Below are positions 32,808-37,729 of a stretch of 37,819 nt of DNA, one piece after another. The stretch's first letter is position 1; each line of letters starts with the position of its first letter. The stretch spans positions 1 through 37,819 of the forward strand of contig CANBKJ010000023.1 in assembly GCA_947369165.1 (NCBI GenBank), given 5' to 3'. Origin of the DNA: an uncultured Lachnoclostridium sp. GTDB lineage: Bacteria; Bacillota; Clostridia; Lachnospirales; Lachnospiraceae. A program made the position numbers and the translations under genes. The notes beneath the pieces are model-generated. The model ran no database searches. It was not told the DNA's origin and saw only the letters and a program-made list of their open reading frames with translations.

Positions 32808-33623
32808 TCACAGCCCCAGGGCGTCCATCTGCTCTCTGATCTCCTCCCCGGTACGCATGGTGTAGATCCGCGTCGTCTCCAGGGAGTTGTGTCCCAGGAT
32901 GTTTGCCAGTGCCGTGATATCTCCACACTTATTGATGTATGTCTTTGCAAAAAAATGACGGAAGGAGTGAGGATGTGCTTTTGCCTTGTCCACCCCTGCC
33001 CTGTCGGCGATCTTCATAAGCATCTGCCACACGGCGCTGCGGGACAGGACACTCCCTTTCGTTCCGGTGAAGATAGCCCCCTGGCGGATATTTCCCTGCC
33101 TGCAGTACTCCATTAATATATTTTGAAGTCCGGGAGAAATAAAGATCTCACGGTATTTTCCCTTGTTGTACACGACACCCCGACCACGCTTTACATTTTC
33201 CACCGTTATATACCTCAGCTCTCCCACCCGGATTCCCGTCCCGGCAAGCACTTTCATAATACAGTAATATTTTTCGCGCCCCGTCTTTCTGGCATAGTCC
33301 AGCATCATTCGGTAATCCTCATCGGAAATGACATTGTCCAGCACAAACATTTTTTTAAGCTTCTTTGTATGTATTTTCATGTCCTCATTTCCACTCCATT
33401 TCAGATAACTGTTAATAGCGATCGCATACAAATTTACCGTAGCCGGTTTATACTGTCTTTTCAACATCTCCACGTAATGCTCTACTACGCTTCTGTTGTC
33501 CGGGGACTTTCCACAAACAGCCACAAAACGCCTCGCCTGACGAATATAGGTAGAAATTGTACTATTTGCTTTGTCCTCTGCGGCCAAAAACTCCCTATAC
33601 GCTTCCATCGTTTTATCTTTCAT
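32808..33623 (-). CDS. Tyrosine recombinase/integrase
   Basis: 271 residues. The N-terminal SAM-like core-binding domain (1-85) has STISTYIRQARRF and ATVNLYAIAINSYLKW. The catalytic domain has Arg132 (AGTGIRVGEL), Lys154 (VYNKGKYREI), His219 and Arg222 (HPHSFRHFFA), His245 (LGHNS) and nucleophile Tyr254 (TTRIYTM), so all active residues are present. The size fits XerC/XerD-like or inverton-type recombinases more than phage integrases. It lies next to, and on the same strand as, the DUF6765/DUF2589 cassette, separated from it by a terminator. No attachment site could be recognised. Confidence 0.95.
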   Translation of the reverse strand: MKDKTMEAYREFLAAEDKANSTISTYIRQARRFVAVCGKSPDNRSVVEHYVEMLKRQYKPATVNLYAIAINSYLKWSGNEDMKIHTKKLKKMFVLDNVISDEDYRMMLDYARKTGREKYYCIMKVLAGTGIRVGELRYITVENVKRGRGVVYNKGKYREIFISPGLQNILMEYCRQGNIRQGAIFTGTKGSVLSRSAVWQMLMKIADRAGVDKAKAHPHSFRHFFAKTYINKCGDITALANILGHNSLETTRIYTMRTGEEIREQMDALGL

Positions 33624-33727
33624 CGTACACGCTCCATTTCTATTACTAAAATGTATAATAACACGAATAAAAAGCTGAATAATTTCTGTATGTCCAAGGT
33701 GTATATCTTTTTTGCCAAAAGCAGGAA

Positions 33728-33768
33728 AAAGGCTGGTACATCCTTGTTTTTAAACGGCACCAGCCTTT
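33728..33768 (-). terminator. Terminator of the DUF6765-CHAP cassette
   Basis: A 10-bp stem (AAAGGCTGGT / ACCAGCCTTT) with a 21-nt loop, followed on the minus strand by a short T run, 19 bp after the CHAP gene stop. Confidence 0.75.
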
Positions 33769-33786
33769 CTTCCTTACAAAACCCTA

Positions 33787-34287
33787 TTATGTATTATATT
33801 TAGGACGTATGATGCACCGAATCAAGCTTACGCTGCGAGTCCGTTTCATCACCATACCACCGTTGCTGTTATTCCCAGTACCGGTATTTCCCTCGATCGT
33901 CGTATAGGTTCCGTCGTCATTTTTCTTTATAATAATCCCTATGTGACAGGCCCTTCCACTGTGTGTAAAGTCAAAAATCACAAGATCGCCCTTTTTCCCT
34001 TTGCTCTTATCACTGACCACCAGGTGCTTATTTTTTCCCCAGCTCTCCACAGCAGCACAAAGCGCTGTTTTCTGGCCGTCATAAAACAATTTAGAAGCAC
34101 CGCACATCCGGAACACGTCCCAGACAAAGGCACAGCACCACGGATACGCCGCTCCTTTTACCTCATGACCATAATAATGAGTATTGAATATTACATTATT
34201 GCTGTTTGCCGGGGACTCTTTCACTCCCTCAAACTTCTTCGCCTGTGCAACAATCATGTCGGGCGTTATTTTTTTCTTTTCTCCCAT
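33787..34287 (-). CDS. CHAP/NlpC-type cysteine hydrolase (predicted peptidoglycan amidase)
   Basis: 166 residues, no signal peptide. The catalytic Cys51 is in AAYPWCCAFVWDVFRMCG, His115 in SGRACHIGIIIK, and the third residue is Asn134 in TIEGNTGTGNNSNGGMV. KGDLVIFDF precedes the His. This is the CHAP pattern of phage endolysins and similar amidases. The start is ATG 34287, with AAAGGAGGAAAAGC upstream. The first 59 nt overlap the end of the DUF4231 gene in a different frame. It is last in the cassette. Since it lacks a secretion signal, it would need a partner to reach the wall or act on a cytoplasmic substrate. Confidence 0.9.
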   Translation of the reverse strand: MGEKKKITPDMIVAQAKKFEGVKESPANSNNVIFNTHYYGHEVKGAAYPWCCAFVWDVFRMCGASKLFYDGQKTALCAAVESWGKNKHLVVSDKSKGKKGDLVIFDFTHSGRACHIGIIIKKNDDGTYTTIEGNTGTGNNSNGGMVMKRTRSVSLIRCIIRPKYNT

Positions 34288-34840
34288 GCTTTTCCTCCTT
34301 TTTCTTTCTCGGCTTTTTTTCTTCCTGTTCCTCTTCTGTCGGTGGAACATCTTCCTCCTGTTTTTTCAGTTCCAGTTGGGACCATCCCTGATTTTCCTTT
34401 ACGGTGATATCTTCTATCTTCTCAATGAAATTGCTGTCCCGTAGCTCAGGATCATCATAATCCCCGATCTCTGCCATGTAATAAACTGCCTCGCATTTGA
34501 TCTGTTCGATGCAGCTTCGGTACCCCACTGATTTTTCATGCCACTTATAAAGACTCCCGAGTCCGTTGGCAATGGCAGCGACAGCAGAAATAACAGATAT
34601 TGCCACCTTACAAAAAACATACATCCCTTCAAAATCCTGAATGCCATTAATCACAATGACACAGGGCGGAAGAACAAGACCAAGCAGACTGCTCACATGA
34701 TATCGGAATTTGTATTTGTGGTACATGACCATGTACCATTCCAGACAGCCAAGAAGACATCTTCGTACATAATCGTTGGTGACATATTCATCAACCATCT
34801 CCAGAAATTCCATATCATTGTTGTAGCTATAACTTTTCAT
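34229..34840 (-). CDS. DUF4231 (SLATT-like) two-helix membrane protein with a charged tail
   Basis: 203 residues. After a soluble N-terminus (EFLEMVDEYVTNDYVRRCLL) come two membrane helices (about 48-67 and 75-98), then a helical cytoplasmic domain with KSVGYRSCIEQIKCEAVYYM. The last 40 residues are dominated by Glu and Lys, ending CCTGEEV. DUF4231 proteins belong with SLATT-like membrane proteins, proposed effectors in nucleotide-activated bacterial conflict systems. The start is ATG 34840, with AAAGGA upstream. The charged tail is encoded in the overlap with the start region of the CHAP gene, whose strong ribosome binding site lies inside it. Confidence 0.8.
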   Translation of the reverse strand: MKSYSYNNDMEFLEMVDEYVTNDYVRRCLLGCLEWYMVMYHKYKFRYHVSSLLGLVLPPCVIVINGIQDFEGMYVFCKVAISVISAVAAIANGLGSLYKWHEKSVGYRSCIEQIKCEAVYYMAEIGDYDDPELRDSNFIEKIEDITVKENQGWSQLELKKQEEDVPPTEEEQEEKKPRKKKEEKHGRKEKNNARHDCCTGEEV

Positions 34841-34892
34841 ATCATTTCCTTTCATTGTAGCATCTGAAACTATATGTTCTTTGCCGGCAGGA

Positions 34893-35162
34893 TCAATTTG
34901 GCGCAAGCCATGGAGGTTTTCTGGCGAACCCCACATGATACACCACATACTGCATGACTACCTGATGCTCCCCGATATTCAGAATATAAAAATTTTTCTC
35001 CTGAGCGATGATCTTCCCTTTTGGGAACTCACTCAGACACCGGTTCAAAAGCTCCGTCTGCTTCCTGTAATGCTCTTCATCCGGCTGTTTTTCCGGATTA
35101 TCGTTCCCCACTATGATTCGGTGAACATACCCTACATCCGCCACAGAAAATGTCTCCGCCAT
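34893..35162 (-). CDS. Hypothetical protein, 89 aa
   Basis: Not recognised. A small soluble alpha/beta protein starting MAETFSVADVGYVHRIIVG, with many acidic and basic residues, then KIIAQEKNFYILNIGEHQVV and a Pro-rich end. The start is ATG 35162, with GGAGG upstream. It is 31 bp downstream of the DUF2589 gene and 52 bp upstream of the DUF4231 gene on the same strand, so it is part of the cassette. Confidence 0.7.
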   Translation of the reverse strand: MAETFSVADVGYVHRIIVGNDNPEKQPDEEHYRKQTELLNRCLSEFPKGKIIAQEKNFYILNIGEHQVVMQYVVYHVGFARKPPWLAPN

Positions 35163-35193
35163 ACTATTCCTCCATTTGCGCACTATTTATCGA

Positions 35194-35943
35194 TTAGTTC
35201 TTACCAGAATGTCCGCCGGACGAGCTTCCTGAGCCACTACCGCCCGATGAACCGCCACTGGATGTGCCTCCTCCTGGCGTGCTGCCACCAGATGGACTGC
35301 TTCCTGGCGTCGTTCCACCCGTGGTGCTGCCAGGTATCCTTTCATTCTTTACCGCCTCGATCTGAGCCGGTGCACTTGCTGTGGAAAGAATATCCAGCAC
35401 CTTAGCCAGACCCTCCGGCATTCCCGTATCCTTTGCATGCACTTCTACATGGTACTTCGCCGAATTATCACTTTTCCTGGTATTGCTCTCATGGGCGGAA
35501 ACGGAACCCTTAATGCTTACATCCGCGGTAAACGGGCCAATCTTCAATCCCATCTTGGCATCCAGCGATCCCGATTTATCGGAAGTCTTTTCACTGCTGA
35601 CAGAAGATTTTACCTCCATATCAAAGGACACATTCACATCGTCTACAGAAAGCGCCGGAATTTTCACAATGGATAAGAGGGGAACACTTAAATTCACCTT
35701 TTCCATGCCAATTCCGTTTCCATCTCCCGCTGTGGACGGTCTCTGGAAAGAAAAATCTACCGTTCTTACCTTTCTAATCCCACTGGCATCCACATCATCC
35801 ATACCAACATGCTGGATAAAATCGGATGTTGCTTTTGCCATCATGATTTGGGCGTCGCACGCCGCTTTCAACGGCCCGCCGATTAATGCTCCCATGTCCA
35901 GTCCACTGAACTGATCCTGCATTTTTACCAATTCATCTGCCAT
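35194..35943 (-). CDS. DUF2589 domain protein with a Gly/Ser-rich tail
   Basis: 249 residues. The DUF2589 pattern is clear: FSGLDMGALIGGPLKAACDA, QIMMAKATSDFI, VNLSVPLLSIVKIPALSVDD and VNVSFDMEVKSS, followed by a beta-rich SIKGSVSAHESNTRK block. Residues 203-249 are a low-complexity Gly/Ser/Thr/Pro linker-like tail ending SSSGGHSGKN. No membrane segment or signal peptide. The function of DUF2589 is unknown. GGAGG precedes the ATG. It lies 70 bp after the related smaller gene, so the two may form a hetero-oligomer. Confidence 0.88.
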   Translation of the reverse strand: MADELVKMQDQFSGLDMGALIGGPLKAACDAQIMMAKATSDFIQHVGMDDVDASGIRKVRTVDFSFQRPSTAGDGNGIGMEKVNLSVPLLSIVKIPALSVDDVNVSFDMEVKSSVSSEKTSDKSGSLDAKMGLKIGPFTADVSIKGSVSAHESNTRKSDNSAKYHVEVHAKDTGMPEGLAKVLDILSTASAPAQIEAVKNERIPGSTTGGTTPGSSPSGGSTPGGGTSSGGSSGGSGSGSSSGGHSGKN

Positions 35944-36013
35944 AATGTCCTCCTTTCCTGCACATATACCTGTGCATATGATGATTTATAGAAAAGACTT
36001 TCCTGACAGCACG

Positions 36014-36496
36014 CTACAGCGATACCCGAATGAGCTCATCCTGTATGCGCATGATCCCCTCCGGGGGATCCTGAGAAGTAAACTGCAGCGTAATATTGGC
36101 AAAATCATCTGAATTTCTTTTGAGCCCTCCCCCTGGGAGATAACCAACAAAAGAACGTCCTTTTTTGTCCGTATTATGTGTAGAGTTTTCTCCCGCCTTT
36201 TCCTCCAGTGAAACCTCTCCCGTGAGTCTGACCTTAAAATCTACTTTGATCCCGTCCAGTTTCAGTGATGATATGGGAACAAGGCACAGTTTGGGGATGG
36301 ATACATCTTGATATGTAATATTTCCACTGTCATCGAACTGAGGCATACTAAGAGGTATACTAACCGGTTTATTCTCTGAATCAAAGAACCCTGATAACAT
36401 TTCTATATGCTGTCTCTCTGCAAGTCGGCTGCACTGTAAAAAAGACTTCTGGATAGCTGCTACCAACTCATCAAAATTCTGCTGTTTCACTTTCAT
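36014..36496 (-). CDS. DUF2589-like protein, short paralogue
   Basis: 160 residues: a helical start (FDELVAAIQKSFLQCSRLAE), then VSIPKLCLVPISSLKLDGIK and VDFKVRLTGEVSLEE, the same beta pattern (PxL-x-hxPISSLKhDxh-xVxF) as in the DUF2589 gene downstream. It lacks the GALIGGPLxAA segment and the Gly/Ser tail. AAAGGAG lies only 2 nt before the ATG; GTG at 36490 is better spaced and may be the true start. It is the second gene of the cassette. Confidence 0.75.
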   Translation of the reverse strand: MKVKQQNFDELVAAIQKSFLQCSRLAERQHIEMLSGFFDSENKPVSIPLSMPQFDDSGNITYQDVSIPKLCLVPISSLKLDGIKVDFKVRLTGEVSLEEKAGENSTHNTDKKGRSFVGYLPGGGLKRNSDDFANITLQFTSQDPPEGIMRIQDELIRVSL

Positions 36497-36583
36497 TACT
36501 CCTTTCGGACTGCTCTTATACAGCCGGGCGGCATCGCCGCCACATGCCGGCAGAAAAGCCTGTTTCTAGCCTAATAAAAATTT

Positions 36584-37729
36584 CTAATATTTACCTGTCA
36601 CGTGCTTTCTCATCTCATAGGTTACCTGATTAAACAGATAAAAGATCTCTTCATTTTCAAAACGGTAAACAGGGACGCCATTTACACTTCCAGCCACTTC
36701 CTGTCCAAATAAACTCTGTGTACTGTAATCAAGCCAGGACATCTTATTCTGGTCATGGAAATAATTTACCGCCCATAGGGCTGAAAGCTCCTGGGCATGC
36801 TGTACGTCATCCATCTCACTGCTGACCAAACATGCTGTTTCCAGCAGTGGCGTTCTAATCTGCTCCCATCTGCCTGCGGTGTGATCCTGTGCCCCTGCCA
36901 ACTTCATAAGCCACTCAAAAATATACTTCGCACACTGCTCAAACACAATGCGGTTACAGCGGCATTTTTCTTTGGAAAAATTGTCATTTTCCTGCGCCCT
37001 ATACCGATACCAGAAGGTAGCACTGCATACATCCGGCAAATGCGCCAGCTGTCCGTGTCCACAGGCGGTAAGACTTCCAAGACGGTCTGAAAAATGCTCG
37101 ATTCCTTCTCTTCCTCTCTCCTGAAGCCCTGCATCGAAAATGTTGATGATCTTTGCATCGTTTTCCCATCCCAGGGATCCGCTGAATCCATCATGGGCAA
37201 AAGTGTCGGCAAACACATGAAGAAGCATTCCTAAATGAACTAAGTCCCCAAGCCTCTTCGAGTCATCCCCCGCTTCCCTGTCTTGAACCATACTGTCTAC
37301 GATGGCATCGATGGCGTTATACAGATTACTTCCCCGCAATGCCGGCTTTGTCCGCAAAGTACTGCGATCCGCTGGATTCTCCGTATAATTTTCCACATAA
37401 AAATGGAAAGGTGTCACACTTTCGAGCTGGTAAAATTCTTTTCTCGCATCCAGCAGGCCAAAAGATGTGATCGAAGGCAGGAACTCATAATAATGGTCCC
37501 CTGCCGCCCCCACCATGGCATTTTCCTGAAAATATCCCGGGGGTTGGTTTTCTACATAGATTTTCAGCATCTTTCCCTTCTGTGTAGGAAACTGTTCTCC
37601 TTTGAAAAAATCCGGTGTCACGTCATCCACCATCTGGGAAGTCAGTGCCAGGACCTGTGCCTCATCCTCACTTAATCCTGCCTCGATGGCCATGGCTTTA
37701 ACAAAATAATAATGAAAATTAATGTTCAT
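36584..37729 (-). CDS. DUF6765 family protein (zinc-dependent phospholipase C-like helical fold)
   Basis: 381 residues, soluble, no signal peptide. The start MNINFHYYFVKAMAIEAGLS and Asp35-Asp36 (SQMVDDVTPDFF), together with GMLLHVFADTFAHDGFSG (His171, Asp175, His179, Asp180), are the hallmarks of DUF6765 and recall the metal site of zinc-dependent phospholipase C/P1 nuclease-type helical proteins. GAGAGGAGAG precedes the ATG. It is the first gene of the cassette, with no clear promoter before the window edge. The subtilase at 19-1518 carries the same His/Asp motif in its C-terminal domain. Catalytic activity is inferred only. Confidence 0.85.
   Translation of the reverse strand: MNINFHYYFVKAMAIEAGLSEDEAQVLALTSQMVDDVTPDFFKGEQFPTQKGKMLKIYVENQPPGYFQENAMVGAAGDHYYEFLPSITSFGLLDARKEFYQLESVTPFHFYVENYTENPADRSTLRTKPALRGSNLYNAIDAIVDSMVQDREAGDDSKRLGDLVHLGMLLHVFADTFAHDGFSGSLGWENDAKIINIFDAGLQERGREGIEHFSDRLGSLTACGHGQLAHLPDVCSATFWYRYRAQENDNFSKEKCRCNRIVFEQCAKYIFEWLMKLAGAQDHTAGRWEQIRTPLLETACLVSSEMDDVQHAQELSALWAVNYFHDQNKMSWLDYSTQSLFGQEVAGSVNGVPVYRFENEEIFYLFNQVTYEMRKHVTGKY

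Follow-up and report, generated by a model that had tools for sequence, protein, structure and literature searches.

Six closely spaced genes lie on the minus strand near one end of contig CANBKJ010000023.1 from an uncultured Lachnoclostridium sp., and they raise the question of whether a set that joins two DUF2589 proteins to a DUF6765 protein, a small protein of 89 amino acids (p89), a SLATT/DUF4231 membrane protein and a CHAP hydrolase constitutes one system, and what such a system might do. The window analyzed here is the whole contig (37,819 nucleotides), which ends 90 nucleotides upstream of the DUF6765 gene and belongs to a genome of 2.8 Mb that is 92.6% complete. Comparison of related loci shows that the conserved unit consists of three genes and not six: DUF2589-short (36014..36496), DUF2589-long (35194..35943) and p89 (34893..35162), all on the minus strand. 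The enzymes encoded beside this core change from locus to locus, and we tentatively regard the whole as a toxin- or lysin-bearing export or delivery module.

The Three-Gene Core

DUF2589-short (160 amino acids) and DUF2589-long (249 amino acids, with a Ser/Gly-rich tail) both match Pfam DUF2589 (PF11655), at 6.2e-18 and 66 bits and at 6.8e-45 and 153.6 bits, respectively, against a cut-off of 23 bits; for p89, none of the Pfam, NCBIfam, PADLOC and PHROG libraries yields a family. When 84,980 species genomes were scanned, 274 relatives of DUF2589-long were confirmed; the best 80 were retained, and to these were added five loci from the family of the window, two viral loci, nine loci obtained in phylum draws and the window itself. 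Dereplication of these 97 loci at 80% identity left 48; the duplicates removed include those of the pair L022 and L042 and of the nearly identical window and L035. At least two DUF2589 genes are present in 41 of the 48 dereplicated loci and p89 in 33 (88 and 79, respectively, of the 97 before dereplication), counts that are biased towards window-like loci because the retained 80 are the closest relatives. A separate short-form profile was added for the final count, the DUF2589-long profile (A5) alone recovering two DUF2589 genes in 14 of the 48. Among the 14 evenly drawn loci (L022-L026 and L151-L159), two DUF2589 genes occur in eight, which is a lower bound since the L153 genome likewise has two DUF2589 stretches according to Pfam, and p89 occurs in six.

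DUF2589 itself is rare: of 250 genomes sampled from the family of the window, 6 carry it, as do 2 of 398 genomes of a phylum draw, 9 of 398 from the phylum of a Pseudomonas relative and 1 of 246 from the phylum of an Amycolatopsis relative (the centre genome is counted in all four figures). The four genomes with p89 among the same 250 family members all fall within the six that carry DUF2589 (hypergeometric, 9e-8); because neighbours of DUF2589 supplied the sequences for the p89 profile, remote relatives elsewhere may escape it. The initial annotation had treated the 89-residue protein as an orphan, a description that its recurrence in 33 of the 48 dereplicated loci overturns: p89 is a conserved family for which none of the four libraries searched has a model. 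The linkage of the trio is directly observed in the genomes, and the three genes travel together across Bacillota, Pseudomonadota, Thermodesulfobacteriota and Myxococcota. DUF2589 is the sole Pfam family matched by the 54 DUF2589-long proteins of A5, and no fused toxin domain was seen in a Pfam scan that covered DUF2589-long and the window's short form. Pfam and NCBIfam scans likewise recognise no NTPase or nucleotide-signal domain in the core proteins.

A deep DUF2589 branch lacks p89 and is represented by L025 (2724-5710), L155 (9390-10775), L158 (8854-10415) and L159 (9369-11520). The second gene of these loci is a different one, which in L159 contains GDYIGYLLSELTVARE, and a third gene that looks shared occurs in L025 and L159. 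In L025 the shared-looking genes are followed by proteins that by eye appear ricin-like and papain-like.

Accessory Genes of the Window

The other three members of the cluster, which are also on the minus strand, are the DUF6765 protein (36584..37729; 381 amino acids; Pfam PF20551 at 7.1e-37, 128.2 bits against a cut-off of 26.6), the SLATT/DUF4231 membrane protein (34229..34840; 203 amino acids; NCBIfam SLATT_1 at 1.8e-16, 60.3 bits against a cut-off of 41, and Pfam DUF4231 at 9.2e-9) and the CHAP hydrolase (33787..34287; 166 amino acids; Pfam CHAP at 8.8e-11, PHROG endolysin at 1.8e-39 and PHROG tail lysozyme at 2.8e-8). DUF6765 and SLATT are present at the same 5 of the 97 loci and the window-type CHAP at 6, as counted by tblastn on DNA because the gene caller misses CHAP in the window. 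The three are accessories of one close clade. DUF6765 is found in 15 of the 250 family genomes (14 above the cut-off) and meets DUF2589 only in the window's own genome, an overlap no greater than chance (hypergeometric, 0.31). At ten other DUF6765 loci of the family (L012-L021, in stretches of up to 1.5 kb on each side of DUF6765) and in four longer stretches (L027-L030) tblastn detects no DUF2589, p89, SLATT, CHAP or recombinase of the window. The proposal that all six genes form one conserved system was therefore abandoned, as their families do not co-occur beyond close relatives, whereas the three core genes do so under the same comparison.

The close relatives also show how the accessories vary. 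L035, from a metagenome-assembled genome of Eubacterium sp., is the nearest named relative found (96.7% nucleotide identity to the window); L036 and L037 (85-90%) and L039 (74-77%) can be aligned to it across the window set, and DUF6765, SLATT and CHAP are all present in these four loci by tblastn. L038, which is 86-89% identical to L035, lacks only DUF6765 and the body of SLATT and retains the core, the recombinase and a CHAP gene with a different predicted start. This joint absence, together with the presence of both at the same five loci, suggests that DUF6765 and SLATT form a pair. The gene next upstream of DUF6765 in L035 is 258 nucleotides away and, because of this gap, probably lies outside the unit. 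In the DUF6765 protein, one stretch in which an HxxxDxxxH pattern can be picked out by eye weakly resembles zinc-dependent phospholipase C; the match to Zn_dep_PLPC (PF00882) covers 21 residues and is below the cut-off (14.1 bits versus 26.8, E 0.047). No protein of the window matches a holin PHROG; SLATT, which might act as a holin, matches a PHROG of unknown function. A combination comparable to the DUF6765-SLATT pair is seen at the DUF2589 locus L052 (10865-12521), from Bacilli, where one protein looks Exo_endo_phos-like and another resembles a SLATT membrane protein, both by eye.

Exchangeable Enzymes beside the Core

Representative neighbours of the core match GH108, GH19, PG_binding_1 and Amidase_2 in Pfam, and further ones match TcdA/TcdB-type glycosyltransferase, HNH, Exo_endo_phos and Phage_lysozyme. 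Single neighbours match Colicin-DNase/WHH (5e-9), EndoU (1e-16), Tle1 (3e-69), Patatin (2e-16), Amidase_3 (4e-10) and, at a locus without p89, Peptidase_C58 (9e-11). Metallopeptidase matches fall below the cut-off, and eleven other scanned neighbours, including SecX3 and members of clusters C13, C14, c16 and c42, show no family above it. The scanned GH19 and GH108 proteins are endolysin-like (PHROG, 2e-79 and 8e-41), and a Luteibacter neighbour is holin-like (PHROG holin, 1.6e-11).

These representatives were chosen by eye, and their linkage was therefore checked separately against distal controls. The near set of 136 proteins comprises 134 operon-linked non-core proteins (60-1000 amino acids) from the 48 dereplicated loci plus SLATT and CHAP of the window, and the distal set is a random 130 of 278 distal proteins (60-600 amino acids) from the same loci; both were scanned with Pfam. 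The best 25 of the 105 families in the near set include GH108, Amidase_2 and GH19 (six proteins each), Phage_lysozyme, PG_binding_1, TcdA_TcdB, Exo_endo_phos and HNH (two each), as well as ordinary genes such as Response_reg (three) and TPR_2 (two). The recurrent enzyme families of the near set are absent among the distal families with at least two members (n = 130; best 25 of 161 families), single distal matches being possible. The initial annotation had proposed an envelope attack device, and because the enzyme families that recur at the core do not recur among distal genes, this idea gains support in the sense of a lysis module or contact toxin: both toxin-type enzymes and wall hydrolases are recurrently linked to the core. 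Within 5 kb of it, tblastn with the picked enzymes finds a wall hydrolase at 24 of the 48 loci, a toxin-type enzyme at 14 and either of them at 30; one wall-hydrolase match is situated more than 5 kb away.

The exchange of enzymes is also directly visible on the DUF2589-long tree. With “none” counted as a label (24 of the 48 rows), the wall-hydrolase label changes at least 14 times, compared with a minimum possible of 6 and a shuffled mean of 22.8; by type, the changes number three for GH19, four for amidases and four for GH108. The wall hydrolases are thus clustered on the tree, yet repeatedly gained, lost or replaced.

Several small proteins accompany these enzymes. An EndoU-type nuclease gene is found in seven loci, mostly from Pseudomonas; the copy in L061 (4514-5068) has an N-terminal signal-like stretch by eye, and a 92-residue protein adjoining the EndoU-type gene could be its immunity protein (stretches L061 4514-5068 and L076 13461-13739). 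Stand-alone proteins of 67-82 amino acids that look SH3-like by eye (L049 10947-11180 and kin) lie beside amidase or lysozyme genes in DUF2589 loci of Bacillota, at seven loci by clustering and six by tblastn, and are perhaps a split-off wall-binding part. The SecX3 cluster (L099 11503-11901 and kin) consists of exported-looking, cysteine-bearing proteins, found by single linkage at 29 loci, that recur at Gram-negative DUF2589 loci. SecX3 was considered as an immunity protein to the wall hydrolases, a role that is unsupported, as the two show no association (Fisher, 0.36).

Delivery Machinery and Export Signals

VipB of the type VI secretion system (T6SS) is present in only 3 of 19 DUF2589 genomes, the phage-sheath family PF04984 in only 6 and WXG100 of the type VII secretion system (T7SS) in only 4, and none of them is present in the window's own genome. 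The core is not tied to these three known delivery systems. By a crude rule, signal peptides are found in 0 of 79 p89 proteins, 1 of 90 DUF2589-long proteins, 11 of 99 DUF2589-short proteins, 0 of 21 GH19 proteins and 0 of 18 GH108 proteins; a hydrophobic stretch above the chosen threshold occurs in 21 of the 90 DUF2589-long proteins. At L152 (2870-8041), a 1723-residue protein with eCIS_core and Fic matches is encoded on the opposite strand, adjoining a GH19-DUF2589-p89 locus.

Predicted Structures

The model of p89 folds as β-α-β-β with a predicted local distance difference test score (pLDDT) of 90.6 and has no significant match in the PDB. The DUF2589-long model is poor (pLDDT 62.7): it has a helix at residues 17-47 and several long strands, and the region at about 112-158 is badly resolved; no significant fold match was found for this low-scoring model. 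The poorly resolved region is ungapped in 54 sequences and conserved to a degree similar to that of the resolved strands, its halves scoring 2.1 and 2.9 bits versus 2.6 for residues 61-111. Its strands are amphipathic, with beta moments of 0.48 and 0.63 versus 0.23-0.24 when shuffled, and the resolved strands likewise alternate polar and apolar residues (0.41-0.49), except for 61-71 (0.30 versus 0.32). Such a region is compatible with an oligomer contact or a membrane hairpin, though it proves neither.

Gene Layout, Recombinase and Mobility

Profile searches in Pfam, NCBIfam and PHROG uphold the family names first given to DUF6765, the two DUF2589 proteins, SLATT/DUF4231, CHAP and the tyrosine recombinase, and the six packed open reading frames with one terminator were recovered as described. 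From DUF6765 to SLATT, the intergenic spacings calculated from the coordinates are 87, 70, 31 and 52 nucleotides, and SLATT and CHAP overlap by 59 nucleotides. A strong hairpin resembling an intrinsic terminator lies 3′ of CHAP on the minus strand (33726..33768), with a folding energy of -21.7 kcal/mol and a z of -4.75 (cut 33724-33772) equalled by 0 of 200 shuffles; a shorter cut gives a z of -0.31 because it splits the stem. This hairpin is not in the consensus terminator scan, which has a loop limit of 8, and consensus promoters and terminators around the cluster are not more numerous than by chance.

Beyond the hairpin, and outside the unit, lies an Xer-like tyrosine recombinase (32808..33623, minus strand; Pfam Phage_integrase at 6.1e-26). 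Its relatives are found upstream or downstream of DUF2589, within 5 kb at 12 of the 97 loci and further away at 2 more; 13 of these 14 loci are from Bacillota, the exception being L057. It is possibly a mobility gene. A search for an invertible promoter or flanking repeats around it found only weak inverted repeats.

Links to viruses are few. The DUF2589 profile detects two viral contigs (L033 and L034) in a pattern-based scan of IMG/VR, and tblastn detects DUF2589 in 1 of 50,697 phage records. The p89 profile confirms nothing in viral contigs in the pattern scan, yet L033, which was found via DUF2589, carries p89. The gene order of L033 is that of the Roseateles locus L062, and of four L034 proteins three have no PHROG match and one matches a PHROG of unknown function. 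DUF2589/p89 genes are also borne on plasmids, in L164 (Vibrio sp. 16 pVDT1) and L165 (Vibrio tubiashii pFP31), where genes annotated as TcdA/TcdB-type, Exo_endo_phos-family, M91 metallopeptidase or type I secretion lie within about 15 kb, though not in a shared operon.

Proposed Mechanism and Alternative Explanations

The reading that we put forward, as a tentative one that stops somewhat short of probable, is that of a toxin- or lysin-bearing export or delivery module built around the DUF2589/p89 core. The two DUF2589 proteins and their small partner p89 would serve as a cytoplasmic carrier or assembly for a payload enzyme. The lysin, here CHAP, together with a small membrane protein where one is present, would open the wall of the producer or of the target, through which assembly and payload could get out or in. 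The payload in the window would be DUF6765, with membrane lipid as its target, and SLATT would be either its partner in the membrane or its immunity protein. We infer complex formation, export, target and toxicity from the genes and their neighbourhoods. Two counts weigh against such a module: tblastn recognises no enzyme within 5 kb of the core at 18 of the 48 dereplicated loci, and among the 14 evenly drawn loci only 5 have one. A more specific version, in which the trio is a new small toxin-translocating assembly (perhaps a ring, tube or pore) loaded with the adjacent enzyme, is doubtful. Such an assembly might be built from the amphipathic β-hairpin of DUF2589-long (about 128-149), with a phage-type lysin releasing it or helping, and would operate in both Gram-positive and Gram-negative hosts without any known secretion machine.

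The same genes could instead form a lysis cassette akin to type 10 secretion (T10SS), in which an endolysin and a small membrane protein lyse some producers and thereby release the DUF2589/p89 complex, which could for example be a bacteriocin, the toxin-type enzymes being released alongside it. The endolysin-type enzymes at many loci and the holin-like protein of Luteibacter argue for it, as does the setting of T10SS within Tc toxin operons, whose toxins are released by controlled lysis according to a published account (PMC10847048). This explanation is possible though rather unlikely, since the holin-like protein is found in just 8 of the 97 loci (one query), the window has no holin match, and at L040, L045, L048 and L064 of the dereplicated set a toxin-type enzyme but no recognised lysin lies within 5 kb. 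Abortive defence, another sense given to the envelope attack device in the initial annotation, or an intracellular conflict system would have DUF2589/p89 detect an infection, whereupon SLATT, lipase and lysin would bring about the death of the host cell. A pore-forming role as an effector of conflict systems has been predicted for SLATT (PMC7159879), the distribution of DUF2589 is patchy, and lysins and nucleases could target the cell that makes them. Nevertheless, PADLOC matches none of seven window proteins even at an E of 1, similarity searches place SLATT near just 5 of the 97 loci, and the core has no recognised NTPase or nucleotide-signal domain; wall hydrolases, EndoU and a TcdA/TcdB-type glycosyltransferase would also suit antagonism better, all of which makes defence improbable.

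A domestic function, in which the enzymes act on the cell's own wall without any toxin role, would agree with wall hydrolases being the commonest neighbours, and the DUF2589-related Archaeoglobus genes AF0414-AF0417 show increased expression on lactate, with no link to conflict mentioned in the part of that report consulted (PMC3949148). It too is improbable, as DNase, EndoU, TcdA/TcdB-type glycosyltransferase, Tle1 and C58 protease neighbours do not fit and the distribution is rare and patchy (2 and 9 of 398 in two phylum draws). The locus might, finally, be a decayed prophage or a chance pile-up of unrelated genes next to an integrase, to which the adjoining tyrosine recombinase, the endolysin-like CHAP with its additional tail-lysozyme match and the lack of linkage between DUF6765 and DUF2589 outside close relatives all point. 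This is very improbable: CHAP and recombinase aside, no phage function is matched at a meaningful E-value by the seven window proteins in PHROG, the core recurs in many lineages across phyla, and DUF2589 appears in only two IMG/VR contigs and the single phage record.

Relation to Known Systems and Significance

In polymorphic toxin systems, one conserved partner stands beside varied toxin domains, with a patchy spread and occasional plasmids. The loci described here are similar in that DNase, EndoU, phospholipase, protease and glycosyltransferase occur beside one conserved DUF2589/p89 partner, and differ in that the toxins are separate open reading frames, none fused to the 54 DUF2589-long proteins. 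The effector classes of T6SS and extracellular contractile injection systems (eCIS) include amidases, Tle1 phospholipase and nucleases. Effector-class enzymes are likewise found near the core, and the eCIS_core and Fic protein of L152 is a further likeness; by contrast, VipB and the sheath family are missing from most DUF2589 genomes and from that of the window. SLATT conflict systems share with the window a SLATT protein in the operon, but their described GTPase or nucleotide-related partners, so far as the available text names them, are not recognised here, and SLATT is an accessory of one clade.

The nearest known arrangement is that in which a T10SS frees Tc toxin through controlled lysis. 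The analogy lies in the endolysin-type hydrolase (CHAP in the window), the holin-like protein of some loci, the toxin-type enzymes at one locus and hydrolases without a signal peptide by the crude rule. It breaks down in that no counterpart of DUF2589 or p89 is named for T10SS in the portion of the account consulted and that the window has no holin match. No published description of such a DUF2589/p89 system was found, an absence that is unproven as subscription papers and preprints were not covered; in open papers, DUF2589, PF11655 or PF20551 appear only in the Archaeoglobus context (PMC3949148) and DUF6765 nowhere.

If the proposed module is real, the DUF2589 pair and p89 would be the hallmark of a locus bearing toxins or lysins that is found among gut commensals, in bacteria of soil and plants and on certain Vibrio plasmids. 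It would then raise the question of the route by which enzymes without signals leave or enter cells without a T6SS, a T7SS or a contractile tail, and new toxins and wall hydrolases could be sought among the genes that adjoin the core.

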